Assembly (NCBI GenBank): GCA_002698785.1
Contig: PAAG01000005.1
Span: 1 to 64,000, forward strand
Source of the DNA: Verrucomicrobiales bacterium
GTDB taxonomy: Bacteria; Verrucomicrobiota; Verrucomicrobiia; Verrucomicrobiales; DEV007
DNA: 64,000 bases
Reading direction: 5' to 3'
This document shows, in pieces, positions 15,863-61,612 of this stretch (the first letter of the stretch is position 1; every line of letters starts with the position of its first letter). A program made the position numbers and the translations under genes. The notes beneath the pieces are model-generated. The model saw only the letters and a list, made by a program, of their open reading frames with translations, did not search any database and was not told the origin of the DNA.

Positions 15863-18800
15863 ATGAAGACCCTGGTAACGACATTCAGTGCCCTCTTAGT
15901 TTTGTGTACCGGTTTGGCGCAAGGCGCTGAGCCGACCGCCCAGTATGTTCGAATCTCCCTCACCGGAGAAAACCGAATTCTCACTCTCGCTGAGGTCGAG
16001 GTGATCAGTGACGGAAAGAACATAGCCAAAGAAGGTAAAGCCTCTCAATCCAGCACTGCCAACAATGGTGTCGCCGAGCGCGCCATCGATGGAAACAAGA
16101 GCAGCGACTGGGGTAAAGGAGGGCAGACCCACACGGTAGAGAAAAAAGGAAAAGAAGAGCCGTGGTGGGAGCTCGATCTGGGATCGGCAAAACCAATTGA
16201 GAAGATCGAAATCTGGAACCGATCAGGTCTCTATGAACGATTGCAGGGGTTCAATCTGGAACTCCTTGATGCAGACAAAAATGTCGTCTACGAGCACAAG
16301 AATAACCCTGCTCCCGACGGTTCGATTTCTTTCCAGTTCGGCGAGGGAACAGAAATCGCAATGGCGGATCACGACGGCAAGGCTGTTCCAGTTCCGATTT
16401 TGTTGGAGCCTGTGCCAGAAGGATATCGTGATCCAAGCCCATTTGAATTTCAGAAAGGAGACAAGATCGCGATCATCGGGAACGGGCTCGCAGATCGCAT
16501 GCAGCACGATGGCTGGATGGAGACATACCTGCAGATGGCGAATACGGAAAAGGAACTCGTCTTTCGAAATCTCAGCCTCACTGGCGACCGGGTAGATCAT
16601 TACCCCCGAAGCAAAGGTTTCATGCCGATGGAGGAATACCTTCGTCATGTCGAAGCAGATGTGATTTTCGCCTTTTTCGGCTACAACGAATCGTTCGCCG
16701 GAGCAGCGGGACTGGAGGAGTTCGAGACGAAGCTTGCCGAGATGATTGAAAAGTATCGCGGTGTGATCCCGAACGGAGAGTCGTTTCCTCGCTTGGTAAT
16801 TTTTAGCCCAATTGCTCACGAGAATCTCGAAGATCCCAATCTTCCCGACGGTGAGGAGAACAACAAGCGACTCGCTCTTTACACGGCGGGCATGCAGAAG
16901 GTAGCGCACGACGAAGGCGTGACTTTTGTCGATCTTTTCGGGCCGACGAAGAAGCTCTACGAGGAAATTGATGAGCCTCTCACTATCAATGGTGTCCACT
17001 TGAATGAACTGGGTAACAAGCATCTCGGCGACATCATTACTCAGGCTCTTTGCGAAACGGAAATTGTGGAAGCTGCTGGTCAGTTTGAGTTGATGCGAGG
17101 TGCGATTCTCGACAAGAACTGGCACTGGCACAATCGCTATCGTGCTGTCGATGGAAACGACATCTGGGGCGGTCGATCGACTCTCAAGTTCGTCAACGAT
17201 CAGACGAACGCCGAAGTTCTTCAGCACGAGTTGACAATGCTCGATGTAATGACGGCAAACCGAGACCCTCTCATCTGGGCGCGTGCGAATGGAAGCGACT
17301 GGAAAGTCGACGACAGCAACGTTCCTGAACCGGTAAAAGTGATTTCCAACGTCGGAGGCGGAAGCAAGAGTTCCAGTGCCGAGAAAGAAGGAAACCTCGA
17401 TTACATCAGTGGAGAAGAGGGGATCGCTCACATGACGATGCCGGAGGGCTTCGAAGTGAACCTTTTCGCTGATGAGAAAATGTTTCCGGAACTGGTAAAT
17501 CCAGTGCAAATGCAGGTCGACACAAAAGGCCGTCTCTGGGTGGCCGCCTGGAAAACTTATCCGAAATGGGAGCCTCTCAAAGAGATGGACGATGCTCTCT
17601 TGATTCTCACGGATACGGATGGAGACGGGAAAGCTGACTCCTGCAAGGAGTTCGCCCGCGTTCACAATCCTCTCGGTTTTGAGTTTTGGAATGGTGGAGT
17701 GATCGTCACTTCTCAGCCCGATATCCTTTTCTTGAAGGACACCGACGGTGATGATGTGGCTGATGAGCGTTATGTGATTTTCCAGGGAATTGGCAGCAGC
17801 GATACTCACCACTCAGCAAATAATCTCATCATGGGCCCTGATGGTGGGATCTACTGGCAGAGCGGAGTCTTTCTTCAGCACAACCACGAGCACCCTTGGG
17901 GACCATCGCTTGAGGCAAGTGCTTCGGCGATGTATCGCTTCGATCCTCGCCGATACACCATTGCTTTCCACGCGCCGAATTCACCGAATCCCCATGGGAT
18001 TGCTTTCGACCGGTGGGGCTACCACTACGCAAACGACGGAACAGGTGGGCGCTCCTATCAAGTGCGTCCCAGTGAAGATGGTTTCGATATGCACCAGTTG
18101 CTGGTGAAAGAAGTCCGTCCTGTGCCAGCGGACGAAATCGTTTCCAGCACCAACTTTCCAGACGAGATGCAGCAGAATTTTCTCGTCTGCAATACCATCG
18201 GTTTCCTGGGGATTAAGAACTACAAGCTTCACCGCGATGGATACAAGACAACCATCACAGAAAAGCGTGGGCAGAATGTAACCGAGAAGGAACTCGAGTT
18301 CGCTCTCGGAGAAGTCTGGGGGACTCCCGAAGAGGACTTGTTAGTCAGTGATGACAAGAATTTCCGTCCCACCGATGCGGTCTTCGGTGAAGACGGTGCC
18401 TTGTATGTGAGCGACTGGCATAACGTCATCATCGGCCACATGCAGCACAATATCCGCGATCCCAATCGCGATCACAAGCACGGCCGTGTTTACCGTATGG
18501 TTTACACAAAGAACGATCTGCAGAAGCCTGTCGCTATTGATGGGCAGCCGGTTGCTGCTTTGCTGGAAAACTTCAAGAGTCCGGTCGATGGCGTTCGCCA
18601 CCGTACGCGAGTCGAATTGAGCGAGCGTGATGCTGAAGAAGTGATCGATCAGACTAAGAAATGGGTGGCGACTCTCGATCCAAAAAGCGAGGGCGATGCC
18701 ATTCCTCTTCTGGAAGCTCTCTGGGTTCACCAGCAGTTCAATATTCGTGACCGGGAACTGCTGGATACTGTTCTGAACTCACCGAACCCACACGTTGCGA

Positions 18801-19342
18801 TCGCCGCCAAGACGGTGAAGCATCATTGGGATGTTGCTGACCCGGCGAAGAACGTCCAGACCACTCCCATCGAGCAGGAGGAAGAAAAGATCGAGATTGA
18901 TATCCCCGAGCACTTCACCAAAGCAGAGGCAGAAGTTTACAAACTCGGAGCGGAGGTTTTTCACCGCGACGCCCACTGCGTGACCTGCCACCAGGCGACG
19001 GGGCAGGGGATCGTGAATATTTACCCGCCTCTGATCGAAAGTTCGTGGGTAACTGGCAGTGAAGAGCGTCTCATCAAGATTGCTCTTCACGGTCTCTGGG
19101 GGCCCATAGAAGTAAATGGGAAACACTATGATCCGTCGAAAGGCGTTCCTCCGATGACGGCATTCAAAGCCTTGCTCGACGACAAAGAGATGGCGGCTGT
19201 CTTGACCTTTGTCAGGAATTCTTGGGGGAACAAAGCCTCCATAGTGAAACCTGAAACGGTGAAGAAGGTTCGCGAAGAAACTGCGTCACAGCAGATATTC
19301 TACAAGCCTGAGGAACTATTGAAAGACCACCCGTTGGAGTGA
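15863..19342 (+). CDS. Secreted PVC-type dehydrogenase fused to discoidin-like, pseudo-SGNH and cytochrome c domains
   Basis: This 1159-residue exported protein is a mosaic. Order: signal peptide ([22 protein letters not shown]), an F5/8-type (discoidin-like) carbohydrate-binding domain at about 25-160 ([19 protein letters not shown]), an SGNH-hydrolase-like domain at about 200-400, the 'membrane-bound dehydrogenase' beta-propeller typical of Planctomycetes and Verrucomicrobia ([22 protein letters not shown] through [18 protein letters not shown]), and a C-terminal cytochrome c with Cys1039-x2-Cys1042-His1043. Such proteins probably oxidise sugars in the periplasm and pass electrons to the haem. 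The SGNH block I serine is replaced (IGNGLADRM). An in-frame GTG at 15836 gives a worse signal. It ends one base before a convergent channel gene. Confidence 0.88.
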
Positions 19343-19343
19343 T

Positions 19344-20402
19344 CTATTTCAGCCGGGCGCCTCGATATTGCACTTCACTTTTCACTTGGAATAGTCGTGC
19401 AAATTCGGGGGGCTGATCGGAGTGGCTGATTGAGATAAGAATATCTCCTACGATCAATTTGGTCTCAAGGGTGGGTTGCTTCACCACGTCTCCGCTGGCT
19501 CGCACGATGGCGACGATGAGAAATGCGCTGCTACCTCTGGTTTCCAGGTCGGCAAGGGTCAGGCCCGCAATGTTGGAACCCTCGGGGATAGAAAACTCCT
19601 CCACGTTCAGTCCCATCTCATCCAGGTCTGCGACAAGGTGGCTTCCAATGACTCCGTCACTGATCAGTGAACTGGCGGTAGGGCGAAGAATAAGACTCGC
19701 AATTCTCTCGGCCCCGATATGTTCGGGAAGTACTACCTGATTCGCTCCTGCCTGCTTCAGCTTTGGCTCCGTAGTAGTAGCCATACCGCGTGCGATGATA
19801 AACAGATCCGGATTCAGGTTTCGTGCGCTGAGGGTAATGAAAACGTTGGCGGCATCGTCCGGGAGAACGACGGCTACTTGAGCAGCCTTTTTGATTCCCG
19901 CTTCTTTCAGAGCCTTTTCATCGGTTGCTTCTCCGAACACATAGAGGAAACCCTTTTGCTCCAACGCTCCTTTGTGAGATTCGTTTCGGTCGAGAACTAC
20001 GAACGGTTGGTTTGCTTCGTTGAGTTCAGTTGCGAGCATTCGCCCGACTCTTCCGTATCCACAAACTATTGTGTGGCCTGTTAGGTTTTGAATCGACTTC
20101 GACATACGCCTGTTTCCCATTGCGGTTTCAATTTGTCCTTCGATCAGGAATTGTACGAGTGCACCACCGATGTAAAGATAGCCAGTGCATCCCAAAATTA
20201 TAAAGACCATTGTCATGATCCGCAGGCCGTCGGATTCGATCATGTTGACCTCTCCGTAGCCGACAGAGAAAACGGTGATCACCGCCATGTAGCAGGATTC
20301 AATGAGTGACCAACCTGCAATGACGTATCCTGCGACGGCGAACAGGCTCACTACGGCGAGAAAGATCGCGCCGTTGCGAAGATGTTTGACCGACGTGCTC
20401 AT
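19344..20402 (-). CDS. Potassium channel with TrkA-type regulatory domains
   Basis: This Kch-type channel of 352 residues has two transmembrane helices flanking a pore loop; the selectivity filter TVFSVGYGEV lies at residues 43-52 (the K+ filter consensus TVGYG with a one-residue variation in spacing, FSVGYGE). A TrkA-N/RCK Rossmann domain begins at about 109 (HTIVCGYGRVGRMLA) and a TrkA-C domain follows at about 260-345, with a ligand-type SDxx end. Likely role: K+ flux at the inner membrane controlled by NAD(H) or nucleotides. It is convergent with the PVC dehydrogenase, one base apart. The neighbouring gene upstream is unrelated. Confidence 0.9.
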   Translation of the reverse strand: MSTSVKHLRNGAIFLAVVSLFAVAGYVIAGWSLIESCYMAVITVFSVGYGEVNMIESDGLRIMTMVFIILGCTGYLYIGGALVQFLIEGQIETAMGNRRMSKSIQNLTGHTIVCGYGRVGRMLATELNEANQPFVVLDRNESHKGALEQKGFLYVFGEATDEKALKEAGIKKAAQVAVVLPDDAANVFITLSARNLNPDLFIIARGMATTTEPKLKQAGANQVVLPEHIGAERIASLILRPTASSLISDGVIGSHLVADLDEMGLNVEEFSIPEGSNIAGLTLADLETRGSSAFLIVAIVRASGDVVKQPTLETKLIVGDILISISHSDQPPEFARLFQVKSEVQYRGARLK

Positions 20403-20483
20403 GGGGGTGGCCGAAACCGAAACGTTAGGAAATTGCTTTCAGTCTGGCTCGAGGTGGATGCAAGATTAATGCCTTAGCTGTGT

Positions 20484-21347
20484 CTAATTATTCAAGACGT
20501 TCTTCTTCCAGTTTTCAACGTAGCCTTCGACCGTAGGAACAAGATCGGGAGCATCTTCGTGAATCTGTTCCAGTAAAGGAATGTTGAGTGTGGTGATAGA
20601 AATCCACTGCCTGTTCTCTTCCGTTCTCGGCTCGAACGGCCCCCAAGTCAGGGAAACTTTGCTCTTATCATCGGACCATTCCCACCCTTCCTCCGGCTCA
20701 AGCATAACGAGGTCAGGGCGAACCGTCTTGTCGAACGTGACATCAGCAGTGAGCTTCTCGATTTTGCCTTTCCAGGCGCCGCCGGTCCGAGTTTCGTAAA
20801 TGAAGAAAGAATCCCAATTCGTCGATCCTCCGGAAGGGCAGCTGTATTCGCGCTCGACAATCACTTCTTCACCAACAGGGAACTCCACATCGATCACATA
20901 CCATGCGTGGCGCTCTGATTCATCTGCGCCTTCTTCGACCTTCTCATATTCTTCCGAGCCGTCTTCATTGATCTTGTAGTGGTAGTGGCCTTCTACCAGC
21001 TCGGATTTCACTTCCTTGCCATTCACTCGCGTAATGAGGTTCTTGATCGGGCCGCTGACGTCTCCTTCCTGATAGGAGCGGGAGGCGTCAGGAAAGCCGA
21101 GTTTCTGGAGGGCTGGCCCACTCTTCTTATGGCTGATGAAAGTGAACGCCACTTTTACCTTCGTAGTCTCGACACCGAAGTGGATGTCGAGATGCTCGGA
21201 CTTCATCTGGATGATGCTCTCCTCGCCACTTCTCCACCCAAGCGGCTCCGGGCCCTGGCTTCCGTCGTTCATGGCAGCATCGTTTGGAATGACAAAACAG
21301 GTGATTCCAAAAAGTAAAAATAGAATGATGAGCAGGTGAGATTTCAT
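20484..21347 (-). CDS. Hypothetical secreted protein (DUF4424-like)
   Basis: The 287-residue product starts at an ATG at 21347 with a clear Sec signal (MKSHLLIILFLLFGITCFVIP). The mature part is rich in beta-strand patterns: IQMKSEHLDIHFGVETTKVKVAFTF near the start, and later WYVIDVEFPVGEEVIVEREYSC. This alternation of 'SEHL.I' and 'V.V.F.F' resembles secreted DUF4424-type proteins, but the match is by eye. No catalytic motif is seen. It stands alone between the K+ channel and a membrane protein on the same strand. Confidence 0.65.
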   Translation of the reverse strand: MKSHLLIILFLLFGITCFVIPNDAAMNDGSQGPEPLGWRSGEESIIQMKSEHLDIHFGVETTKVKVAFTFISHKKSGPALQKLGFPDASRSYQEGDVSGPIKNLITRVNGKEVKSELVEGHYHYKINEDGSEEYEKVEEGADESERHAWYVIDVEFPVGEEVIVEREYSCPSGGSTNWDSFFIYETRTGGAWKGKIEKLTADVTFDKTVRPDLVMLEPEEGWEWSDDKSKVSLTWGPFEPRTEENRQWISITTLNIPLLEQIHEDAPDLVPTVEGYVENWKKNVLNN

Positions 21348-21440
21348 CGAAAGAATTTTTACACAAACCTGGGACATCCGAAAGGCAGTTGTATGAAAAT
21401 CCTTGTGATGGCCAACTCGTGATGAGCGCGCTTCTTTCCC

Positions 21441-22127
21441 CTACATGTCATTCTCCCATTTCCACCACGGGCCAGATATGTGTTGATGGTAGTAGACCGA
21501 CTCGGGGGCGGTCGGTGGTGTTCCTTCCCCCGTAAAATAAAGAACTCCGGCTCTATCTCGTCCTCCAAAAACGGTCTCGAAAAGAATACAGTCTGATCTC
21601 AGGACCTGTGTAGACCGTATCCGGAATAGTCCGATCACCTTGAATACATCGTCAGGATTTCTTTGTTCTATTTCTTGATCATTTTGAAGGAAAAATGGTG
21701 CTAGAACTTGATCGGTCCATTCTTGGTATTGAATGTGCAAAGGCTCACCATCGAAGCTATCAAGTTGCTCTTGAGCTTCTTTTTTCAGAAAGGGAATGCT
21801 TGCAAAGAACCGCAAGTGAAAAAGTGAGTTGGTTGCTACGAGGCCATATAGAGCCAAGGCGACTACGGGTTCAATACTCCAGCGCACAATGCATTCCTTG
21901 TGATTCCAATTCCTCCGCGAGCGAATTCTGATTACGAAAACAATCAGTCTTGTAAACCATGCTAGCGCCCACAAACCGAGGATGTGGGGAAGGAACACGA
22001 CGAAGAGGAAATTACTGAATGCCCAGGTTACGTCGCTAAACAGGTAGAGGGCGAAGGCGACAGCAAGTGTGCTGAAAACGGCGGGTGCGAAATATGGCTT
22101 CCGAAAACTGGAGAGGAAACGCTTCAT
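21441..22127 (-). CDS. Hypothetical membrane protein
   Basis: The 228-residue product has about three N-terminal membrane helices (PAVFSTLAVAFALYLFSDV, FSNFLFVVFLPHILGLWALAWF, VVALALYGLVATNSLFHLRFF) and a C-terminal soluble domain of about 110 residues with QVLRSDCILFETVFGGRDRAGVLYF. I do not recognise it. It starts 16 bases after the stop of the short-chain dehydrogenase gene, so it may be the last gene of that operon. Confidence 0.65.
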   Translation of the reverse strand: MKRFLSSFRKPYFAPAVFSTLAVAFALYLFSDVTWAFSNFLFVVFLPHILGLWALAWFTRLIVFVIRIRSRRNWNHKECIVRWSIEPVVALALYGLVATNSLFHLRFFASIPFLKKEAQEQLDSFDGEPLHIQYQEWTDQVLAPFFLQNDQEIEQRNPDDVFKVIGLFRIRSTQVLRSDCILFETVFGGRDRAGVLYFTGEGTPPTAPESVYYHQHISGPWWKWENDM

Positions 22128-22143
22128 TGAATAGATGCTTGGC

Positions 22144-22923
22144 TCAACTATGCATCACCTGACCACCATCAATATTGATGGTCTGGCCGGTCATATTTTT
22201 TCCATATTCGCTGGCCAGATAGGCTGCCATGGCTCCGAACTCTTCTGGCTCCTGCCATCGACCGAGTGGAGCAATCTTTTCGATTTTTGCCTTGGCCCAG
22301 TCCTCGTAGGTCTGTTCGGTGTTTTCTCGATTGGCTTCGAAAACAGAGCGGTTGAGGTCAGTTTTCACCATGCCGGGAGAAAGGCAGTTTACCCGTATGC
22401 CATCGGGAGCAAAGTCCTTCGCAGCGCACTGGGCAAAATTGATGATCGCAGCTTTGCAGGCACTATAGGGAGGGTCGGTTTGAGATCCAATTTGTCCGGC
22501 AACCGAAGACAGTAGAGTGATCGACTTACGTTGCGTGTCTCCCGTTCGAAGCGCGGGAACAAAGGCATGTAGTAGATTCACCGTTCCCATCAGCGAGACT
22601 TCGATGACGCGATTCCAATCGCTGGGGTCAAGATTCCAAAAGGGAAAGCCACCGATGCCCGAGCCGATCGCCGCCGCGCAAATGATGTGATCTACGGTTT
22701 GGTCCTTTGCGATTTGCTGTAGCTGATCGTAGTCGGTGATGTCTGCTTCTTTTGTCGTCAGGGTATTCGACCATTGCTCTGAAAATGTTGTCGATTCCGG
22801 TTTGTTCAGATCAAGAATCAGAACGTGTGCTCCCGCTTCCAGAAACGCTTTCGTAATGGCAAGGCCAATACCTTGTGCCCCTCCTGCCACAACTGCGTGG
22901 TGTCCTGTTAGGTCGATTTTCAT
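22144..22923 (-). CDS. Short-chain dehydrogenase/reductase (SDR)
   Basis: This classical SDR of 259 residues is a cytosolic NAD(P)-dependent oxidoreductase. The cofactor motif is GGAQGIG at residues 14-20, and the catalytic set is Ser139/140 (LLSSVAGQIG), Tyr153 and Lys157 (PYSACKAAI). The acidic residue after the second strand (ILDLN) suggests NAD(H). The C-terminus GQTINIDGGQVM is the usual SDR ending. The ATG at 22923 overlaps the DUF2752 gene stop by four bases (ATGA). Substrate is unknown; many such enzymes act on sugars or 3-oxoacyl groups. Confidence 0.9.
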   Translation of the reverse strand: MKIDLTGHHAVVAGGAQGIGLAITKAFLEAGAHVLILDLNKPESTTFSEQWSNTLTTKEADITDYDQLQQIAKDQTVDHIICAAAIGSGIGGFPFWNLDPSDWNRVIEVSLMGTVNLLHAFVPALRTGDTQRKSITLLSSVAGQIGSQTDPPYSACKAAIINFAQCAAKDFAPDGIRVNCLSPGMVKTDLNRSVFEANRENTEQTYEDWAKAKIEKIAPLGRWQEPEEFGAMAAYLASEYGKNMTGQTINIDGGQVMHS

Positions 22924-23333
22924 TCGAGAAATAGAATCAGGTAGATCCAATTGAGAACGAGAATTCCGAACACGGAGATAACAACCGTTTTGACTTTCTT
23001 GCTGTGTTCGGATGGTGGAAGCAGGTCGTCACCTCGACGGAAACGAATCCATCCATGAAACATCCAGCCGAAAGCCGCAACGATTCCAATGACTACTGCC
23101 GGATTGTATTGAAAAGCCTCGACGAATTTTCCGTGTGCAAGGGCCTGCATGGAACGTGTGCCTCCGCATCCGGCACACGGTATTCCGAGAGCCCTTTTGA
23201 AATTACACTCAGGAGCTTTAACAGGCAGGCGATCGTAGATTCGAGCAATGCCGATCAGCACCATTACAGTGGCAAAGGTGACGATTGGTGCCACGAGAAC
23301 TTCTGGGTGCTGCTGTCTGGAAGGCTCGCTCAC
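22920..23333 (-). CDS. DUF2752 membrane protein
   Basis: The 137-residue product carries the DUF2752 hallmark CNFKRALGIPCAGCGGTRS at about residues 43-61 between an N-terminal helix (VLVAPIVTFATVMVLIGIA) and two further helices. The conserved Cys and CGGTR motif suggests a structural or redox role, but the family is uncharacterised. It is coupled on both sides: its start overlaps the preceding gene by four bases and its stop overlaps the SDR start by four bases, so 23.3-24.3 kb forms a tight three-gene operon. Confidence 0.85.
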   Translation of the reverse strand: MSEPSRQQHPEVLVAPIVTFATVMVLIGIARIYDRLPVKAPECNFKRALGIPCAGCGGTRSMQALAHGKFVEAFQYNPAVVIGIVAAFGWMFHGWIRFRRGDDLLPPSEHSKKVKTVVISVFGILVLNWIYLILFLE

Positions 23334-24319
23334 GAAGCCGGAGAGGGAATCAATTTCAAGTGAACGGTGGATTCCTCACTGCCGGCCGCTTCCAGGGGAA
23401 GGTCGGGATAAAAACGATCTGGTTTAATGTGGGGGTATCCGGTGAGTTGCTCGCGAATGAAATCCAGTTCGAGGGAAAGCTCTTTCAGTGAGGCTCCGGC
23501 GACTTCCAACTGGATGCGGGGAAGGGGAATATTCGACTTCTTAGCGACCTCATCGTAGTCCGTTAGCAGCCTCGCAATGCGGTCCAGGTGAACAAGGTTG
23601 CCGTCGAGATCTTTGGAAAGCAGGTTAGGGCTTTCAATCTGGTGGCGCAGTGATGATCCGAGTGTTTCTGTCAGGTTTTTGAGATGCGAAAAGTCGAGTT
23701 CACCTTCGACGATGTATTCGGGAGCTGCTTCGACAAAGGTTTCATGTTCCGGCCCGTACAATTCACCTTTCACGAACCACGAACCGCCTTTCCACTCTAT
23801 GTCTACCGTTTCCATGGCCTTGGGGAAACGAGCTTCAAAGAGCATTTGAGTGATCTTCTCAAGGTCAGCTTCGCGCTTTTTGTTCACGGATTCGGTGAAC
23901 TCAGAAAGGGCTTTCAGAAATTCTTCCTTGGCCCGCTCCACGTGAGCGTCCTGATTATCCGCACGCTGCTCGGCGTATTTTGTATTGAGGGAATGATATT
24001 CAGTCAGGACAACTTCTGCCGCATGTGGGCCGATATTGTGTTTGAGAAGAATGGATTCCGCCGAAGGGGCCAAAGGATCACGCAGACCAAGTAAGCGCTT
24101 TTTGAAGAAACCAGATCTCTCAACGCTGAGAATTTCGATCCCTGGTTCGGCGCGAAGGTCAGCGAGTGCACCGCGCCATTGAAAGCCTCGAAGCAGCAGA
24201 AAGATGGTCAAACCGAGGATAACCGCTGCGATTGTTGCTGAGGACGCAACATAGAGAAGCGATCTTGGCTCACGGTCCGGAGCGGCTCCGGCGGAAGATG
24301 AAGCGGCGGCATCGTTCAT
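23330..24319 (-). CDS. Membrane-anchored OmpA-associated-type envelope protein
   Basis: The 329-residue product has an N-terminal membrane helix at about residues 22-46 (LYVASSATIAAVILGLTIFLLL) and a periplasmic region with PGIEILSVERSGFFKKRLLGLRDPLA, a stretch that resembles the domain found before OmpA domains in several phyla (PGI.V...E..G...V.GLRDPLA). A middle coiled-coil (about 130-180) is rich in Glu/Lys/Ala. The typical C-terminal OmpA peptidoglycan-binding motif is not obvious (the end contains LEVAGASLKELSLELDFI). The ATG at 24319 is preferred to a GTG at 24340. It heads the DUF2752-SDR operon. Likely an envelope structural protein. Confidence 0.7.
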   Translation of the reverse strand: MNDAAASSSAGAAPDREPRSLLYVASSATIAAVILGLTIFLLLRGFQWRGALADLRAEPGIEILSVERSGFFKKRLLGLRDPLAPSAESILLKHNIGPHAAEVVLTEYHSLNTKYAEQRADNQDAHVERAKEEFLKALSEFTESVNKKREADLEKITQMLFEARFPKAMETVDIEWKGGSWFVKGELYGPEHETFVEAAPEYIVEGELDFSHLKNLTETLGSSLRHQIESPNLLSKDLDGNLVHLDRIARLLTDYDEVAKKSNIPLPRIQLEVAGASLKELSLELDFIREQLTGYPHIKPDRFYPDLPLEAAGSEESTVHLKLIPSPAS

Positions 24320-24382
24320 CGGTTGAGAATGGTAGATCACTCTAGCCCGGTGTTCGAGCGGTTTCTGCGACGGAATTTCCTG

Positions 24383-26122
24383 TCAGAAAATATCGGGTTC
24401 AGGTGAGTCCGGGCCCGCATGGAGGAAGCGGAAGTCACATCCCTCAGGCGCCTGAGTGATTTCTTCGGCGTAAAGTTTTCCGTATCCCCGGCGATGACGG
24501 TCAGGTCGGGGTGCCCAGGCGGCTCGACGCGTTTCTAATTCCTCATCCGTAACATCGAGGTGGAGTTTTCTCTCATCTACATCGACTTCGATAAAATCGC
24601 CGGTTTGAACCAAGGCGAGCGGCCCGCCGATTGCTGACTCTGGGGATACGTGGAGAACGCAGGCTCCGTAGCTCGTCCCGCTCATCCGGGCGTCAGAAAT
24701 ACGCAGCATGTCCCGAACTCCCTGTTTCAGGAGATAGTTCGGTATCGGCAGCATTCCCCATTCTGGGATACCGGGAGCGCCAATGGGACCCGCGTTTTGC
24801 AGAACGATGATGTGATCCGGTGTGAGAGCGAGCGACTCGTCGTTGATGCGGGCTTTCAGGTCTGCGTAGTCAGAAAATACGACGGCAGGCCCTTTGTGCT
24901 TCAACAGGTGCGGTTCTGCTGCGGTTGGTTTCATGACCGCTCCGTCTGGAGCGAGATTTCCTCGCAGAACAAAGGTTCCTCCCGCCTTGGAAACGGATCG
25001 GTCGAGTGGACGAATGACGTCATCGTTGAAAACTTCGGCGCCTTCGAGGTTTTCGCCGAGTGTTTTGCCAGAAACCGTTGAGCAATCGAGGTGAAGATGC
25101 TCTTTGATCTGTGAGAGTAGCGCGAGAATACCTCCCGCATCGTAGAAATCCTCCATCACATATTCACCGCAGGGGCGGATATTGGCGATCACTTTCACTT
25201 GCTGGGAAATCTCATCAAATTTTTCCAAAGTCAGCTTTATCCCGGCCCGACCTGCCATGGCGATGAGGTGGATGATCGCATTGGTCGATCCTCCAAGCGC
25301 CATATCAGTAACGATGGCGTTGTGAAAAGCGTTCCCGGTGAGGAGGTCGCGGGGAGTGATGTTTTCCCACGCGAGTTCCACGATCTGTCTCCCGCAGGAG
25401 GAAGCCATCCGGGCGTGTGTCGAGTGAACGGCTGGAATGGACGTAGACCCGGGCAGGCAAAGTCCCAGCACCTCAGCAATGGCTGTCATTGTCGAAGCAG
25501 TTCCCATTGTCATGCAGTGGCCGGGCGAACGCGCGATGCCGTCTTCCAGTTCCGCCCAGGAATCGTCGCAGAGGTTTCCGGCCTGTTTCTCGGCCCAATA
25601 TTTCCACATGTCGGTGCCGGATCCGAGCGTCTCTCCGCGCCAGCAGCCTTTCAGCATGGGGCCAGCAGGTAGGAAAATACTGGGAATATTCGCCGAGGTG
25701 GCTCCCATGATGAGAGCGGGTACCGTTTTGTCACAGCCACCCATGAGCACTGCTCCGTCGACAGGGTAGCAGCGGAGAGTCTCCTCGACTTCCAAGGCGA
25801 GCAGATTGCGATAATACATGCTCGTCGGCTTCATAAAGCTCTCAGAGAGAGACATTACGGGGATTTCTACGGGAAAACCGCCAGCCTGCCAGACGCCACG
25901 CTTTACTTCTTCTGCACGATCGCGGAAGTGAGTATGGCAATTGTTCATGTCCGACCACGTATTGAGAATTGCGATCGTCGGCTTTGCCTTGAAGTCCTCA
26001 GAATTAAATCCCATCTGCTTCAGTCTTGAGCGATGGCCGAAGCTGCGTTGATCGTCTGGTGCCCACCAGCGTGCGCTACGGAGGGTGGACGGATCTCGTT
26101 CCTTGGATTCGGGGGTAGACAT
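24383..26122 (-). CDS. Sugar-acid dehydratase, IlvD/Edd family (L-arabinonate dehydratase-like)
   Basis: This cytosolic Fe-S dehydratase of 579 residues belongs to the sugar-acid branch of the IlvD/Edd family. The cluster cysteines lie in NTWSDMNNCHTHF, GGCDKTVPA and GHCMTMGTAST, and the substrate/Mg site in GGSTNAIIHLIAMA. The RSARWWAPDDQRSFGHRSRL opening is typical of the L-arabinonate/other pentonate and hexonate dehydratases rather than of biosynthetic IlvD. It would give a 2-keto-3-deoxy acid. There is no direct operon partner (60 bases to the envelope operon downstream), but a second family member lies at 31.0-32.9 kb. Confidence 0.87.
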   Translation of the reverse strand: MSTPESKERDPSTLRSARWWAPDDQRSFGHRSRLKQMGFNSEDFKAKPTIAILNTWSDMNNCHTHFRDRAEEVKRGVWQAGGFPVEIPVMSLSESFMKPTSMYYRNLLALEVEETLRCYPVDGAVLMGGCDKTVPALIMGATSANIPSIFLPAGPMLKGCWRGETLGSGTDMWKYWAEKQAGNLCDDSWAELEDGIARSPGHCMTMGTASTMTAIAEVLGLCLPGSTSIPAVHSTHARMASSCGRQIVELAWENITPRDLLTGNAFHNAIVTDMALGGSTNAIIHLIAMAGRAGIKLTLEKFDEISQQVKVIANIRPCGEYVMEDFYDAGGILALLSQIKEHLHLDCSTVSGKTLGENLEGAEVFNDDVIRPLDRSVSKAGGTFVLRGNLAPDGAVMKPTAAEPHLLKHKGPAVVFSDYADLKARINDESLALTPDHIIVLQNAGPIGAPGIPEWGMLPIPNYLLKQGVRDMLRISDARMSGTSYGACVLHVSPESAIGGPLALVQTGDFIEVDVDERKLHLDVTDEELETRRAAWAPRPDRHRRGYGKLYAEEITQAPEGCDFRFLHAGPDSPEPDIF

Positions 26123-26208
26123 GACGGAAGTGTTAGCGTGCTGGAAGCGTTTGGGAAGGGGAAAATTGGGTGGGATGTTTTCGGGAAATCGTGTATTTTG
26201 TGGCAGTG

Positions 26209-26790
26209 ATGGAAGCCGAAAACGTTGTCCTGATTTCTCCAGAGGAATATCTGGAGTCCGAGAAGGAAAGTGAGATCAAGCATGAATATCTCGGAGGGAC
26301 TGTTCATGCCATGAGCGGCGCTTCGAAGCAGCATAATCGTATTGCTGGATCAATATACCGGCTCTTGGCATCGAAAATTGGTGCTGGCCCGTGTGAGCCA
26401 TTCATTGGAGATGTGAAAGTTCACCTCAAAACTGCAATCAGTGAGTTCTTCTATTATCCGGATGTCGTTGTTGGATGCGATCCAGAGGACAATAACGAAT
26501 ACTACCTTGAGAATCCGGCGATTATTTTCGAAGTTCTTTCGCCTTCAACGGAGAATATCGATCGGCGAGAAAAGCTCCTGGCTTATCAATCTATCGAATC
26601 GCTCGAGCACTACGTAATCGTATCGCAGGAGAAGATGGAAATCGAATGGCTTCACCGCTCAGGAGAGGGATGGAAGGTCTCAAAGCTCATTCGGCCTGCG
26701 GATGCGCTGGAGTTTTCAGAACAGGGCGCAACGTTATTGCTTTCTGAGATCTACGAAGGAATCGACTTTCCTGCTGAGAACGAAGGATAA
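26209..26790 (+). CDS. Uma2 family (DUF820) putative restriction-endonuclease-fold protein
   Basis: The 193-residue product shows the Uma2 pattern: SPEEYLESEKESEIKHEYLGG, then VVVGCDPEDNNEYYLENPAIIFEVLSPSTENIDRREKL split over the family blocks (D-...-EVLSPST and a conserved DR..K). This is a PD-(D/E)XK-like fold common in cyanobacteria and PVC bacteria, with no proven function. I chose the ATG at 26209, which opens with MEAENVVLISPEEYL, over an upstream start. It lies between a divergent dehydratase and the SGNH/dehydrogenase pair. Uma2 genes are often patchily inherited. Confidence 0.88.
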   Translation: MEAENVVLISPEEYLESEKESEIKHEYLGGTVHAMSGASKQHNRIAGSIYRLLASKIGAGPCEPFIGDVKVHLKTAISEFFYYPDVVVGCDPEDNNEYYLENPAIIFEVLSPSTENIDRREKLLAYQSIESLEHYVIVSQEKMEIEWLHRSGEGWKVSKLIRPADALEFSEQGATLLLSEIYEGIDFPAENEG

Positions 26791-26811
26791 TAAGGCGTTT
26801 TTCCGCACTTG

Positions 26812-27816
26812 ATGCGAGGCCGAGTGTTCCCGACACTGCCGGCCATGTGGAAACAGATTGCTGTATATTTATCCATTCCCTGGATCGCGTTGAGTTTCGA
26901 TCCAGCTTCGCAGGACGATTCACAAGCTCTGGCGAGGCATTTTGCGGAACAGGAGAGCCCAAAAGGGCCTGCTTTTGAACGAGGCGAATACGTTCCAGTT
27001 CAGGGCGAAACCATTTCCATCATGGGCGGGGCGATGGTCTTCGAAATGCAGAAATTCGGATTTCTGGAGGCAGTTATGCAGCAGGCGCATCCGGATAAGC
27101 AGCTCAAGTTTCGGAATCTAGGTTGGGCAGGTGACACGGTATATAATCAACAGCGGCCTATGTATTTTTATACCGAGAAAGGGGATACACGAGAAGGGAG
27201 CATTCCCGATCAGAGACAAAAGATCGAGCCGGGAACTTTCATTCTCTGCTTTGGGAAAATGGAGAGCCTTGACGGGGAAGAAGCGCTCCCCGCCTTCGAA
27301 AAATCCTACGAGGGACTCATCGAGAATCTGGGGAAATACACCTCTCGTATGATTCTGGTAGAGCCCTTTCCATTTTCCGATGTCGGCCCTGCTAAGGATT
27401 TATCGCCTGAGCGAAATGAGGTCCTCGCGATGTATTCCGAAACGATCAAAGACCTCGCAAAGCGACATAGTGCGATCTTCGTGAGGTCAGAGGAATTTCC
27501 TCCAGATAATTTTGAAAGTAATGGTCTCTACCTGACTGAATCCGGGCAGAAGGAATTGGCTAGGCAGATCGCCACTGGATTGGGTATCGAGTTTGAGCCG
27601 AAGCCCTATGTCTTGGAGGCAGTCCAAAAGAAGAACGTCTTGTGGGACCAGTATTACCGCCCGACGAACTGGGCTTTCCTTTTTGGCGATCGCCAGTGGG
27701 TTCCCAGTTCAAGGGATCATAAAGATGAGTCGAAGCGATGGTTCGTGGAGGAACTGGAAGTGATTCCTGGATTGGTGGCAGAAGCAGATCAGAAAATCTG
27801 GGAGGTGGCGAAATGA
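26812..27816 (+). CDS. Secreted SGNH-like protein with degenerate catalytic blocks
   Basis: The 334-residue product aligns by eye with the SGNH-like domain of the PVC dehydrogenase at 15.9 kb: RFRNLGWAGDTV-type block II (KFRNLGWAGDTVYNQQRPM) matches, and order of blocks is the same. The hydrolase residues are lost: block I reads IMGGAMVFEM (no GDS serine), block III CFGKMESL (no Asn) and block V SNGLYLTESG (no Asp or His). It is therefore probably a non-catalytic partner. A hydrophobic N-terminus (MWKQIAVYLSIPWIAL, from an alternative ATG at 26845) suggests export. Its stop overlaps the next gene by four bases, so the two proteins are made together. Confidence 0.75.
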   Translation: MRGRVFPTLPAMWKQIAVYLSIPWIALSFDPASQDDSQALARHFAEQESPKGPAFERGEYVPVQGETISIMGGAMVFEMQKFGFLEAVMQQAHPDKQLKFRNLGWAGDTVYNQQRPMYFYTEKGDTREGSIPDQRQKIEPGTFILCFGKMESLDGEEALPAFEKSYEGLIENLGKYTSRMILVEPFPFSDVGPAKDLSPERNEVLAMYSETIKDLAKRHSAIFVRSEEFPPDNFESNGLYLTESGQKELARQIATGLGIEFEPKPYVLEAVQKKNVLWDQYYRPTNWAFLFGDRQWVPSSRDHKDESKRWFVEELEVIPGLVAEADQKIWEVAK

Positions 27817-30500
27817 AGAATTTGTTTACTACATTTGTTGGGTTGTTGCTCGTGGTGGCTACGGTTGGAATTTCCCATGCTGTATCCGTTGGTGACAAAG
27901 AGGCCGATAATTCCGTGGAGGCACAACTAGAGGCGTTCAAAGTCCACGAAGACTTTGCGGTGAACCTGTTCGCGGACGAGTCGATGGGAATCGCCAATCC
28001 AGTGGCGATGCATTGGGATGATCGAGGAAGGCTCTGGGTGCTGACTACACTGACTTATGCACAACTGAAGCCCGGCGAGAAACCAAACGATACCCTCGTC
28101 ATCCTCGAAGACACTGATGGAGATGGTAAAGCAGATAAGTCTTCCACTTTTGTAGATGGGCTGAACATGCCAATGGGATTCGCCATCGGTGATGGTGGTG
28201 TGTATGTCGGTGAAGGACCTGATCTGCTTTTCTTCCACGATGAAGACGGGGATGGAAAAGCGGACTCACGCGAAGTGGTTTTGACAGGGTTTGGAACAGG
28301 GGATACTCACCAGAATATTTCCAACTTCACTTGGGGACCGGACGGCTGTTTGTATTTTGCTCAGGGGTTGCACTGCTACTCATTGGTGGAAACACCATGG
28401 GGAATTGTGCGAGGAGACACCGCGGGCTTCTGGAAATTCGATCCCGAAACCTTACGTCTGACTCCCTACGGCTTTCCAAGCAACACGAGCCAGAATCCCT
28501 GCGGTATCGTTTTCGACAAAAAAGGATCAATATTTATTAAGTCAAACAACCGGGAGCTGATCTACGCGACACCTGCTCTCATTCCCACCACCCACCAGAA
28601 TAACCTCGTACCGATTGCATCGATCGGAGTCACCCCAGGCAAATCGATGGGGGGCGAGTACGTCGATTCGCCGCATCTTCCAGACTGGATTCAGAACAAT
28701 ATTCTGATCGCCGGATACTATTCGAACAGAGTATCCGCTTTTCCTTTGGTGGAAGACGGGGCTGGTTACGCAGCGGTAGAGCCTGTCGAAGTGCTCGCGT
28801 CGGAGCACACCAGTTTTCGCCCCGTGGAAATTCGAATCGGTCCGGACGGCGCCATCTATGTCGCAGACTGGTTCAATCCGATCATCGGCCACTATCAGGC
28901 TTCCTTGCGCCACCCTGACCGTGATAAGGAACATGGCAGAGTGTGGCGTGTCTCTGCAAAAGGTCGCGAGAAAGCCAGTCCGACCTATCATTTTCACAGA
29001 CCAGGTACGAGCGATATCATAGATAAACACCCTCCAGGCGCCGAGACGATGCTTCTGGAGGATGAGGATCCTTACACCAGGTTGAGAGGGATCGTGCTCG
29101 CAGCAAATCACTCTCCCAAGAAGGGATTGGTATCGATACTGACAGCTCTAGATCATCCTCGCGACCGCTTCATTGATTACGCCCTTGAGCAGTCTGTTCA
29201 TGCGCTTGCTTCTCATTGGGTTCCGGCTGCGAAGGCAGGGGAGCTGAAATTCGAGAAGCCGGAGCATCTCGGTTACGCGTTGAATATCCTAGGCGGCGAA
29301 GACGCACTCGAAATCGCTAAATCTAGACTATCCGCCCCTGACGCAACACCAGAAGGTCGTGCGCAAATGGCCACAGTGATCGCCGCAAACGGATCATCCG
29401 AAGATCTGGGCGCTCTGTTGAAATCAGGTCCGATAACAGAAGACGTTTTCACCGCAATGGCTGACAGCTGGCCTAAGCGAAAAGTGAAGCCGGCGGGAGG
29501 TGTCGCGGGAACATTGAAGTCTCTTCTCGCCGATTCTAATGTGGGAATTCAATACCAGGCCGTTCGACTCGCAGGTCTATGGCAGATCAACGCAGTGGCT
29601 CCTGATATCCTTGCTTTGGCACAGGACAGCTCGGGGGAAATTGAAATGCGTGGCGAGGCTGCCAAGTCTTATGCGCGAATCGCAAGAGCCGAGGCCATCC
29701 CGGCATTGGCAGAAATGACAGAGAGCGAGAATACCTTCGTTCGTGCCGCCGCAATCGATGCGCTCGCTTCCATTGCTCCCCAAAAAGCGGCGACGATCGC
29801 AGCACCACTTCTCGGTTCTGTTTCAAACAAGGAGGAAGCGACAGGATTGCTGAGACCGTTCCTGAGTCGTAAAGGCGCTTCTGAGATACTTGCTGGCGCA
29901 CTGGAAACTGTTAGCCTCGAAGCAGATGCGGCAGGCCATCTCGCCACTGGAATGAGCGAAATGGGGCGTAGCGACGAAAAACTGCTCTCCATTATCCAAG
30001 GCGCGATGGGTGTCCAATCCGGAGCACAGGCATACGATACGGAATACGTCGCTGCCTTGGCGAAAGAAGTAGTGGATGCCGGAAATGCCGAGGCTGGAAA
30101 AGAGATCTATCATCGAGCACAACTCACCTGTGTTGCCTGTCACCAGGTGGGTGGGCAAGGCGGAATTCTCGGGCCATCTCTAGATGCGGTTGGTGCAGGA
30201 TTGCCTGTAAATCTCCTGATCGAATCCGTCCTCTGGCCGGATCGACAGCTCAAAGAAGGCTACTTTTCTATCGCTGTGAGTACCAAAGGCGGAGACACCT
30301 TTTCTGGTTACAAGGACAAAGAAGAAGAGGACTATCTATACCTGCGCGACACAGCCTCGGGTGAAGTGAAAGCAATCCAGAAACGCGAAATCACAAATCT
30401 GCAGAACCTCGGGACGATCATGCCGCCGAGCCTGACCAATTCCCTCAGCCGCGAAGAGCTTCGGGATTTGATTGCGTATCTCGCGAGTTTGAAAGGTTAA
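27813..30500 (+). CDS. Secreted PVC-type dehydrogenase with HEAT-like repeats and cytochrome c domain
   Basis: The 895-residue protein starts at an ATG at 27813 preceded by GGGAGG, overlapping the SGNH-like gene by ATGA. Order: signal peptide (LFTTFVGLLLVVATVGISHA), beta-propeller dehydrogenase domain at about 30-400 ([30 protein letters not shown] Ca-binding-like loops; AIYVADWFNPIIGHYQAS), an alpha-helical HEAT-like region at about 440-720 rich in Ala/Leu, and a C-terminal c-type cytochrome with Cys773-x2-Cys776-His777 (GGQGGILGPSLDAVG follows). Likely a periplasmic sugar or alcohol dehydrogenase passing electrons to its own haem. It is the split-gene counterpart of the fused protein at 15.9 kb. 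Confidence 0.88.
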   Translation: MKNLFTTFVGLLLVVATVGISHAVSVGDKEADNSVEAQLEAFKVHEDFAVNLFADESMGIANPVAMHWDDRGRLWVLTTLTYAQLKPGEKPNDTLVILEDTDGDGKADKSSTFVDGLNMPMGFAIGDGGVYVGEGPDLLFFHDEDGDGKADSREVVLTGFGTGDTHQNISNFTWGPDGCLYFAQGLHCYSLVETPWGIVRGDTAGFWKFDPETLRLTPYGFPSNTSQNPCGIVFDKKGSIFIKSNNRELIYATPALIPTTHQNNLVPIASIGVTPGKSMGGEYVDSPHLPDWIQNNILIAGYYSNRVSAFPLVEDGAGYAAVEPVEVLASEHTSFRPVEIRIGPDGAIYVADWFNPIIGHYQASLRHPDRDKEHGRVWRVSAKGREKASPTYHFHRPGTSDIIDKHPPGAETMLLEDEDPYTRLRGIVLAANHSPKKGLVSILTALDHPRDRFIDYALEQSVHALASHWVPAAKAGELKFEKPEHLGYALNILGGEDALEIAKSRLSAPDATPEGRAQMATVIAANGSSEDLGALLKSGPITEDVFTAMADSWPKRKVKPAGGVAGTLKSLLADSNVGIQYQAVRLAGLWQINAVAPDILALAQDSSGEIEMRGEAAKSYARIARAEAIPALAEMTESENTFVRAAAIDALASIAPQKAATIAAPLLGSVSNKEEATGLLRPFLSRKGASEILAGALETVSLEADAAGHLATGMSEMGRSDEKLLSIIQGAMGVQSGAQAYDTEYVAALAKEVVDAGNAEAGKEIYHRAQLTCVACHQVGGQGGILGPSLDAVGAGLPVNLLIESVLWPDRQLKEGYFSIAVSTKGGDTFSGYKDKEEEDYLYLRDTASGEVKAIQKREITNLQNLGTIMPPSLTNSLSREELRDLIAYLASLKG

Positions 30501-31010: not shown

Positions 31011-32933
31011 TTAGGAGGTCAACTTCTCGATAATCGCATCAACATCATACACGCATCCACCCCACGTTCCGCCGCTGACATTCTGTAGAGCAGCCCAGAG
31101 ACGGGTGTCGTCTGGAACATTGGGGAGTCGATGGAGTTTTTCGTTCGTGTCACGTGCGAGGAGTTCATCGACATCTCCCGCATAGTCGACTGTTCCGGTC
31201 ATATTCCGGCAGTCAATGCGAATCCTAACCGTATCACCATCCCTTACTTTCCCGATGGGGCCACCTGCCCAGGCTTCTGGTGAAATGTGACCGACGCAGG
31301 CACCTGTCGATACTCCGGAAAATCTTCCATCAGTAATCAGCGCGACGTGCTTGCCCCACGGAAGGTGTTTCAAAGCAATCGTGAGCTGAGCCGTCTCAGG
31401 CATGCCGCAGCCAATCGGGCCAAGCCCGATCAAAACGATCACGTCACCTTCTTGAATGCGATCATCGCCCTTGGATTTTACGGCGGCGATGGCATCCGGT
31501 TCCGAGGCAAAAACGCGAGCAGGTCCTTCGTGGAGGTAGATCCCATTCTCGTCGATCTTGGATGGATCGATTGCCGTCGACTTAATTATCGATCCCTCAG
31601 GAGTCAGGTTGCCACCCGGGAAAGTAACGGTCGAAGTGAGCCCGCGCGAAGCGGCCACCTTTGGCGACATGATCACATTGTCAGGATCGATGCCGTCCAG
31701 CTGTGTGAGCTTTTCACGAAGTCGCTGACGTCGTTCGGATTTCTCCCACCACTCCAGATTCTCACCGACGGTCTTGCCGGAAACCGTGAGGGCATCGAGC
31801 TGCAACATTCCTGCCTCGCGCAAGTGAAGCATCACCTCAGGCACTCCACCAGCGAGGAACACCTGGACGGTGGCGAAGTGCACCGGTCCATTCGGGAGGG
31901 CATCCACGAGCCGTGGAATCTCTGCGTTGAAACGCCGCCAGTCATCAACCGTCGGACGACGAACACCCGCCTGATGGGCAATCGCTGGCAGATGCATGAT
32001 CAAATTCGTGGAGCCACCGAAAGCGGTGTGCACCGCTAGGGCATTTTCAAAAGCAGCCTCTGTCAGGATATCTTTCGTGGTGATCCCGTTTTTCTCCATC
32101 GTGACGACTGCGGCACCAGTTCTCCGAGCCATGTCGCGCCAGATATCGGCACCTGACGGAGCGAGAGCAGAATGAGGTAATGTCAGCCCCAGCCCTTCCG
32201 CGATCACCTGACTGGTGGCAGCCGTTCCGAGAAACTGGCATCCTCCACCTGGCGAAGCACACGCTCGACATCCTGCCTCTGCCGCGTCAGCATAAGTCAT
32301 TGTTCCTTGAGAATACCGTGCTCCGATCGTCTGGATTCGACCCAGGTCCTCGTCAGTGTCCTCACTCAACAAAGTGACACCGCCAGGGATCAGCGCGGTC
32401 GGAAGGTCATGACACGATGCCAAAGCCATCATCATCGCGGGTAAACCCTTATCACATGTAGCAACACCCACGACTCCCTTTCGCGTCGGATGAGATCGAA
32501 TCAACCGGCGAAAAACCGTCGATGCATCGTTTCGATAGGGAAGGGAATCCATCATTCCGTCCGTGCCCTGTGTTCTTCCATCACACGGATCGCTGACAAA
32601 ACCAGCAAAGGGAACACCACCCAAAGAAGTAATCGTCTTCGCAGCTTCCTCCATGAGCAAGCCAACCTCAAAGTGCCCAGTGTGATATCCCAGCGCGACA
32701 GGCGTTCCATCCGGCTGACGGATACCTCCCTGGGTCGACAGGATCAAGTAATCACCTCCAGAGACCTTGTCAGCGTCCCAGCCCATGCCCACATTCTGGG
32801 TCCAGCCGAAGAGGTTTCCACTGGGGTGTGTGGCAAGCTGCTCTTGTGTGAAAGGCAGGACACCGGTTGGGCCTGGCGCCTTGGTCTTGAGTGTGAAAAT
32901 GGATTCGTCTCCCGAATCGAGTAAGGGGTTCAT
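31011..32933 (-). CDS. D-xylonate dehydratase-type IlvD/Edd protein (YjhG/YagF-like)
   Basis: The 640-residue product belongs to the long YjhG/YagF branch, whose members dehydrate D-xylonate (and L-arabinonate) to 2-keto-3-deoxypentonate. Fe-S and substrate residues are seen in [25 protein letters not shown] and [32 protein letters not shown] is the substrate loop, and the C-terminal lid [20 protein letters not shown] is conserved. It lies 28 bases after an FAH-family gene on the same strand, which would use its product. It shares only the family with the arabinonate-type paralogue at 24.4 kb. Confidence 0.9.
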
Positions 32934-33813: not shown

Positions 33814-33908
33814 GGCGCGAGCATAGAGAAAAAGGGGAGGGTTGCCAGCCCATATCCGCGGAAGACTTGTCTGCTCCCGGAATGCGGCTACCTTCGGGCC
33901 GCTTCGCG

Positions 33909-61313: not shown

Positions 61314-61327
61314 AGGTTCGCTAGTTA

Positions 61328-61373
61328 GTGTGTTAGAGGGACTCCCGTTTTATTTGGGGAGCGCCTAACACAC
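61328..61373. promoter_or_regulatory. Long palindrome in the divergent NHL control region
   Basis: The arms GTGTGTTAG (61328-61336) and CTAACACAC (61365-61373) pair perfectly; inside, CTCCC (61342-61346) and GGGAG (61357-61361) pair around a T-rich 10-base loop. The structure begins 15 bases before the minus-strand start at 61313, in the 299-base gap to the divergent NHL gene at 61613. It may be an operator for a dimeric regulator or a leader hairpin that affects translation of the left gene. Confidence 0.55.
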
Positions 61374-61612
61374 GAAGCGAGCCTGACTCGTTTCTGATTG
61401 AAGATTTTTTTGAAACTGAATCGAGGGAGAGACGGTTGGATGACGGGTTTATGCAGAAAAGTATTTAATTTTTGAAGCGGACAGCAAGAGTTTCATTGGG
61501 GGGAGCATTGTGTGGAGCTGTGCCGATTTGATGTAAGGGGTGGTGAGGAAATTATCCTTAGTAACTTATCGAAAGGGGAGTATTTTGCTCCGTTCTATCA
61601 ATCCGTGCCCTA

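Follow-up and report, generated by a model that had tools for sequence, protein, structure and literature searches.

The propeller fold of the proteins described here is shared with the AA12 enzyme CcPDH and with the bacterial soluble PQQ glucose dehydrogenase, sGDH (Z about 24–28). CcPDH also has its propeller joined to a cytochrome, in what excerpts of its description present as a three-domain protein. The third domain of CcPDH is carbohydrate-binding. The position of the carrier differs, however, as a cytochrome b stands before the propeller in CcPDH, whereas a cytochrome c or a cupredoxin follows it in our proteins. SGNH/GDSL acetylxylan and sialate O-acetylesterases, such as Axe2, share their fold with the SGNH-like protein B1 of this work (Foldseek E about 1e-7 and weaker), but the modules studied here are without the catalytic triad and have a C-terminal extension that is common to loci A and B.

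Lac161_ORF7 (AGW45552), which combines TIGR02604, HEAT and cytochrome c and comes from a Chthoniobacter-assigned clone, has been reported as a β-galactosidase, and the purified protein is described as releasing glucose from lactose with a Km of 1.8 mM (excerpts of PMC5342196). Its TIGR02604, HEAT and cytochrome c parts and the Verrucomicrobia-assigned clone are as for our protein B2; the likeness is one of domain description, and those excerpts mention no SGNH part. The PSCyt proteins of He et al. 2017 come from the same superphylum and are likewise modular, with cytochrome c and binding domains (sections of PMC5615132); the main text of that paper contains neither ‘GDSL’ nor ‘lipase’.

Here we compare these systems with two loci in one window, by which we mean the whole 64-kb stretch of DNA analysed: a fused gene, A, and a split gene pair, B1 and B2. 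A and B2 exceed the cut-offs of both TIGR02604 (‘PVC-type heme-binding CxxCH protein’) and DUF7133 (PF23500), and differ from typical members of those families in that their subfamily has a triad-less SGNH partner and, in part, a blue-copper domain instead of heme. The reading that we prefer, with moderate confidence, is that the SGNH-like module is a non-catalytic subunit of an exported sugar-oxidising enzyme, and that A and B belong to an ancient and little-studied three-part redox family of Verrucomicrobiota and Planctomycetota.

A fused gene and a split pair in one window

Table 1. Positions of loci A and B and of the genes that flank B.
Feature	Positions	Strand	Basis
Gene A, fused, 1159 aa	15863–19342	+	start ATG 15863; Pfam and NCBIfam
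A signal sequence	N-terminal	+	by eye
A F5/8 type C (galactose-binding-like) domain, residues 60–162	16040–16348	+	Pfam PF00754 60–143, PF22633 73–162
A SGNH-like module and C-terminal extension	16421–17326	+	Pfam Lipase_GDSL_2 216–386, BLASTP, predicted structure
A propeller	17387–18532	+	DUF7133 from residue 518, TIGR02604 529–882, predicted structure
A cytochrome c domain, CVTCH motif	18944–19225	+	Pfam Cytochrom_C 1028–1121
L-arabinonate dehydratase gene	24383–26122	-	960.8 bits, cut-off 882
Gene B1, SGNH-like protein alone, 323 aa	26845–27816	+	start ATG 26845; BLASTP, predicted fold
B1 stop / B2 start overlap, ATGA	27813–27816	+	sequence
Gene B2, 895 aa: propeller, HEAT repeats, cytochrome c	27813–30500	+	Pfam, NCBIfam, BLASTP
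B2 propeller	27900–28985	+	NCBIfam, propeller profile
B2 HEAT repeats, best stretch residues 568–652	29514–29768	+	Pfam
B2 heme-binding domain, TIGR02603, residues 757–892, CVACH	30081–30488	+	NCBIfam, motif
YjhG/YagF D-xylonate dehydratase gene	31011–32933	-	1082.1 bits, cut-off 808.15

The single chain of A carries, in this order, an F5/8-type domain, an SGNH-like module, a TIGR02604/DUF7133 propeller and a cytochrome c domain. The propeller models score 184.6 bits for TIGR02604 (NCBIfam cut-off 122.2) and 219 bits for DUF7133 (Pfam cut-off 27), and the Lipase_GDSL_2 and Cytochrom_C matches are also above their Pfam cut-offs, with the CxxCH motif present as CVTCH. For B2 the same two models give 222.3 and 255.7 bits, and Cytochrom_C is again above its cut-off, with the motif present as CVACH; B1 reaches 23.2 bits against Lipase_GDSL_2, below the Pfam cut-off of 32.9. 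Signal-like N-termini are seen by eye on A, B1 and B2 alike, and the proteins of the family are probably exported. A preliminary description of this DNA had presented A as SGNH-like protein, dehydrogenase and cytochrome c in one chain, and B as an SGNH-like gene coupled by ATGA to a dehydrogenase-cytochrome gene. The domains, coordinates and coupling are as it described them; the label ‘dehydrogenase’ is as yet unproven, its basis being the fold and the attached electron carriers.

BLASTP finds 25% identity between B1 and the SGNH module of A across 296 columns (E 1e-18), and the alignment extends past the SGNH blocks through the C-terminal extension. The propellers of A and B2 align over 398 columns at 35% identity (E 6e-60), and the stretches with the heme motif can be aligned as well (E 3e-4). 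On these alignments, the likeness of A and B in both modules is far above chance. The preliminary description had noted the same block order in A and B (its example was FRNLGWAGDTV) and had proposed that both pairs be aligned, naming a failure of the SGNH-like proteins to align as evidence against it; both module types proved homologous.

This genome has 22 single matches above the TIGR02604 cut-off, and five of these proteins have the SGNH module, fused in A, L055 and L057 and split in B and L054. The best matches of the A and B2 propellers among the fetched regions are the other four module-linked propellers of the same genome. A propeller tree was made by a quick method from 95 propellers, with eight propellers without a module as outgroup, some of these on long branches (L161, whose start is cut off, was omitted). 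In this tree A and B fall in separate parts, A in a fused clade and B in a clade of four split members whose sister group consists of seven fused ones. Because the two loci fall in different clades, a recent fission or fusion of one gene within the window is ruled out, and A and B are not two states of a single unit but deep paralogues. Thus, of the earlier proposal that one unit occurs once fused and once split, the presence of both states stands, while the count for the genome is three fused and two split. A further TIGR02604 frame, at L052:5421–10064 (G000:C50:657905), has one in-frame TAA and is possibly a broken copy or a sequencing error.

The two dehydratase genes beside B are both on the strand opposite to it. 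Sugar acids such as arabinonate and xylonate are products of the C1 oxidation of pentoses, which is chemistry of the PQQ sugar dehydrogenase fold family. Since an L-arabinonate and a D-xylonate dehydratase gene flank B, a pentose is a reasonable guess for its substrate. Elsewhere in the window, a possible FAH-like gene (32962–34026; by eye, no NCBIfam match at 1e-10) follows the D-xylonate dehydratase gene, and a glucuronate isomerase above cut-off (5403–6839, minus strand) adds further sugar-acid catabolism. Two NHL-repeat-like proteins of 580 and 401 aa, seen by eye on opposite strands at 59571–62818, represent another propeller-like family, and 47264–50740 (plus strand) encodes an 1158-aa protein with no Pfam match at 0.001, no NCBIfam match at 1e-10 and only a negligible PADLOC match.

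Propeller fold, electron carriers and cofactor

The best fold match of the A propeller is 3a9g (Z 28.0, rmsd 2.8, 282 aligned), followed among the top matches by the AA12 structure 6h7t (Z 27.8) and CcPDH itself (6jt5, Z 26.6); lactonases and other propellers lie at Z about 23–24. A sequence link from the propeller to an enzyme in the PDB was also sought, and a profile search of PDB sequences gave only weak matches, to NHL-type propellers and others. Neither A nor B2 matches the Pfam model GSDH at E up to 1. Another TIGR02604 protein of the same genome, at C2:275920 and outside the subfamily, is above the GSDH cut-off with 33.8 bits.

Behind the propeller, a single kind of carrier motif per protein is found in all 73 proteins of the sample: CxxCH in 52, a blue-copper motif of the CTFPGHxxM type in 21, and both in none. 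Of 39 scanned fusions (25 with the heme and 14 with the copper motif), Pfam at E up to 1e-5 detects Cytochrom_C in 19 and Copper-bind in 13, and the H, C, H and M residues are invariant in 20 aligned copper domains. The carrier can differ between close relatives, with heme in A, L102 and L103 and copper in L106 and L115, and the stretch of about 120 aa ahead of the exchange is common to them. On the propeller tree the carrier changes six times, and at least four of these changes are forced. Because two unrelated one-electron carriers have been exchanged at the same place, this is good evidence for electron transfer. Heme predominates in the best 80 of at least 578 named relatives (see below), where CxxCH is present in 45 of the 47 adjacent proteins that end inside a contig and in the one fused protein; the two exceptions are L236, whose frame ends behind masked bases, and L246, whose frame is only 188 aa. 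It is also present in all 19 other TIGR02604 proteins checked in this genome. Since 21 of 73 carry the blue-copper motif, the name ‘heme-binding CxxCH’ does not fit the copper members.

The conserved carriers argue for net oxidation, and this bears on an alternative to our preferred reading, in which the propeller cleaves glycosides, either directly or via a transient oxidation, for example to a 3-keto sugar, while the carrier only resets the site and the SGNH module is the sugar-binding part. Some fusions have extra domains that point in this direction: among the 39 scanned (E up to 1e-5), six have ThuA and two have a 3-keto-disaccharide hydrolase model, with the ThuA match of L057 just below its cut-off, and ThuA is also the commonest family among 70 scanned neighbouring genes, although it occurs in only four. 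Such domains would fit the 3-keto sugar chemistry that is described for DUF1080 in sections of PMC9007349. He et al. 2017 further suggest, in the sections of PMC5615132 concerned, that PSCyt genes mirror glycoside hydrolase genes. Also in its favour is the glucose release reported for Lac161_ORF7, a protein likened to ours by its domain description, at the level of TIGR02604 rather than of the SGNH-linked subfamily. The expression strain E. coli BL21(DE3)pLysS has its own lacZ. It was in this strain that Lac161_ORF7 was produced, and the paper itself likens its Km to that of LacZ (excerpts of PMC5342196). Weighing these points, we consider glycoside cleavage by the propeller unlikely.

With regard to the cofactor, a search for PqqC was negative in all 22 genomes that have the module; with the same search, S. 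meliloti pSymB gave 428 bits as a positive control and 14 built-in control genomes were silent. PqqE likewise had no match above cut-off, in a search run without a positive control. Parts of PMC6881789 place His363, Arg430 and Asn431 of CcPDH at PQQ, with the catalytic His common to sGDH and Arg430 common to bacterial enzymes. By motif alignment alone, all 95 sequences of our subfamily share the Asp and His of a DTH motif and an Asn, and none of the 95 shows the PQQ-site Arg; among the module-less TIGR02604 proteins of this genome, 5 of the 18 that were aligned have Arg-Asn. A and B2 differ from CcPDH and sGDH in the apparently missing Arg and in the genomes, in which no PqqC was found, as well as in having no direct sequence match to them. 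With no PqqC found and the Arg absent by motif, the cofactor of the subfamily may be PQQ that is scavenged and bound in an altered site, or a different one.

These two negative results, together with the matches to NHL-like and lactonase-like folds, are also what one might expect if the propeller were a binding scaffold without redox chemistry of its own. Against this stand the carrier motif on every propeller of the sample, the repeated exchange of heme and copper, and the invariant Asp, His and Asn residues, and we regard a pure scaffold as quite unlikely.

The SGNH-like module and its partner

To follow the pairing across genomes, a profile built from the five modules was run against 288 genomes of the phylum, with up to eight module and six propeller first-look candidates scored per genome; module counts are accordingly lower bounds, and absence from the other 266 genomes refers to those candidates. 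At least 81 modules score above 100 bits, in 22 of the 288 genomes, and the next match has 75 bits. By frame length, 66 are long (at least 831 aa), 14 are short (at most 519 aa) and one, of 648 aa, lies at a contig edge. The fetched regions contain 77 module ORFs, 63 fused to a propeller and 14 split, with a propeller gene adjoining 10 of the 14; four loci without a module ORF (L154, L162, L166, L175) are left out of this count. In the 22 genomes all propeller candidates were scored, and 80 reach 295 bits or more (all at least 299), the next having 279 bits and below.

We see a near one-to-one relation between the two parts. Fused or adjacent to their partner are 76 of the listed 81 modules and 76 of the 80 propellers. 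Of the five remaining modules one is at a contig edge, and four are non-adjacent (no partner within 1.5 kb) and occur in the same four genomes that hold one non-adjacent propeller each. Every propeller of at least 295 bits therefore has a module beside it or one spare in its genome (80/80). Propellers with E up to 1e-78 are found in the same 22 of 288 genomes as the module and nowhere else among the candidates scored, and a script check of the next nine propellers in the 22 genomes (254–279 bits) found a module beside none of them. The preliminary description had called for such a survey and had named failure to co-occur as the outcome that would speak against it; what the genomes contain is consistent co-occurrence.

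Named genomes, scanned with the split type as the starting point, contain at least 578 confirmed relatives, with Planctomycetota among those listed. The best 80 of the 578 were used, so that the ratio of fused to split loci in this set is meaningless: the propeller is adjacent in 60 and fused in one, three loci are at a contig edge and 16 have no propeller in the locus. The 16 genomes behind these last loci contain 86 modules of at least 100 bits and 80 propellers of at least 285 bits; 65 modules have a listed propeller within 1.5 kb and 21 do not, and three propellers below 285 bits, with short matches, do have a module. A non-adjacent propeller is present elsewhere in 15 of the 16, the exception being G293, in which a partner propeller was searched for and none was found. 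Since the positions obtained for G292 coincide with those for G234 of the first set, the new genomes number 15, and 14 of these 15 have a non-adjacent propeller as well as a non-adjacent module. The two numbers are equal in 13 of the 16 genomes, with some cases at contig edges, and modules exceed propellers by one in G293, G298 (4 to 3) and G300 (2 to 1). In G290, G295 and G296 the non-adjacent partners share a contig, about 81, 16 and 6 kb apart. The genomes are partly related, so the non-adjacent cases are not independent. In a sample of the phylum of the Schlesneria genome G302, surveyed for module and frame lengths only, the module is present in 39 of 199 genomes; of 103 listed pieces, 79 belong to long frames and 24 to short frames, with two of the latter coming from one and the same frame.

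A gene neighbourhood common to the family is not supported by the neighbours scanned. Of 77 close same-strand neighbours (within 300 bases, less than 900 aa, window excluded), 70 were scanned, the other seven being those of L137, L140, L142 and L144; 64 families were matched and the commonest occurs in only 4 of 70, so no shared operon is seen. Among non-adjacent modules, that of L137 is preceded by a PSCyt1/PSCyt2/PSD1 gene, of a different family from the propellers studied here, and a DUF1501 gene; those of L140 and L142 have similar-sized genes upstream. The non-adjacent module of L144:6351–8126 is directly followed by a second SGNH gene (117.2 bits, Pfam cut-off 32.9).

On the propeller tree, the module-linked propellers are all on one side of a branch with an SH-aLRT of 99. 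Fused and split states change five times, and at least four of the changes are forced by starred branches. Module and propeller distances are correlated, with r 0.84 for the 95 pairs, a value reached in 0 of 999 shuffles, and r 0.95 for the 32 split pairs, and nearest partners agree in 1063 of 1549 comparisons against 420 expected, or 353 of 534 against 145 for split queries; relatedness inflates all of these values. Judged from such comparisons, free swapping of partners between modules and propellers is not the rule. Residues 187–890 of A (704 aa, module plus propeller) were modelled with a pLDDT of 92.5 and a pTM of 0.92. As the pTM is high over two domains, the model predicts a confident mutual placement of module and propeller, which may partly reflect their covalent link in one chain.

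It has to be asked whether the module might be a loose carbohydrate-binding add-on, which travels with the gene without any fixed contact. Other domains of the same proteins do come and go in this way, F5/8C being present in 4 and ThuA in 6 of the 39 fusions. The SGNH-like module, by comparison, is beside or spare for every high-scoring propeller, both parts are mostly retained even when apart, and the model of A places them together, all of which makes a loose add-on distinctly improbable. We conclude that the SGNH-like module is the constant partner of one propeller subfamily. As for the claim of the preliminary description that fused and split forms reveal modules that work together physically, it gains from the retention, from the repeated changes between fused and split and from the confident model of A, which folds as one body with help from the covalent link; the contact itself is a prediction.

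The constant partner is not a conventional esterase. A fold search with B1 as the query (model pLDDT 81, pTM 0.80) returned GDSL esterases, acetylxylan and sialate esterases among them. The catalytic Ser, Asp and His, however, are together in 0 of 75 aligned modules of the first set, after two gapped rows were dropped, and in 0 of the best 80 named modules; the two sets share at least two loci, since L177 and L186 resemble L141 and L144. At the Ser position most modules have Thr or Gly, and Ser is present in 9 of 75 rows; at the Asp of DxxH most have Asn. His is common, the block II Gly is often kept, and so is the block III Asn in fused modules. In A, Gly replaces the Ser of GDS and Asn the Asp of DxxH, with the block III Asn and the His retained; in B1, Ser has become Ala, the block III Asn Met, the Asp Asn and the His Tyr. 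The columns were checked against L064, an SGNH protein of the same genome whose GDSIT motif is normal and whose 16-kb region contains no propeller of this kind; its Ser, Gly, Asn and His fall in place and its Asp does not. Invariant residues of the module are instead one Glu, two Arg and two Gly (in all rows that have a residue at the position, 156 or 157 of the 157). By its sequence the module would be dead as a hydrolase, and because residues other than the triad are strictly kept, it appears to be under selection for something other than the usual catalysis. The earlier label ‘pseudo-SGNH’ is thus apt, and a module that still removes acyl groups from the sugar before oxidation is highly improbable, since the esterase-like fold, the occasional Ser and the common His are outweighed by the broken triad, by B1 with none of the four residues and by invariant positions that lie elsewhere.

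A predicted three-part redox family

Under the preferred reading, three parts would make up an exported enzyme that oxidises sugars: a module of SGNH fold without its former hydrolase triad, a propeller folded like the PQQ-type sugar dehydrogenases and, behind the propeller, an electron carrier, either cytochrome c or blue copper. The SGNH module would pack on the propeller as a fixed non-catalytic subunit and help to form or recognise the substrate site. The propeller would oxidise a sugar or glycoside outside the cytoplasm, and electrons would pass to the tethered carrier and on to the respiratory chain.

No report of the SGNH partner or of the exchange of heme and copper was found in the open-licence literature, which does not prove that there is none. 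The phrase ‘PVC-type heme-binding CxxCH’ was in no open-licence paper found, and of the family names looked for, TIGR02604 alone turned up, in PMC5342196; sections of PMC8567305 contain nothing on these proteins. As far as this literature shows, three features are new: a dead esterase as constant partner, the retention of this partner where it lies apart from its propeller, and the exchange of heme and copper.

A bolder proposal, which we offer tentatively and think somewhat unlikely as a whole, is that PVC bacteria have a class of redox enzymes whose propeller attacks sugars, perhaps with oxidative cleavage of glycosides, and does so without PQQ of the cell's own making; a former SGNH esterase, now dead, would be its obligatory subunit, and heme and copper would be interchangeable outlets. 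With 22 TIGR02604 matches in this one genome, the sole function that we found for such proteins in the open-licence literature is the one reported β-galactosidase. The pairing described here offers a handle on them: a split pair, closely related proteins that naturally carry either heme or copper, and a well-defined cofactor question.
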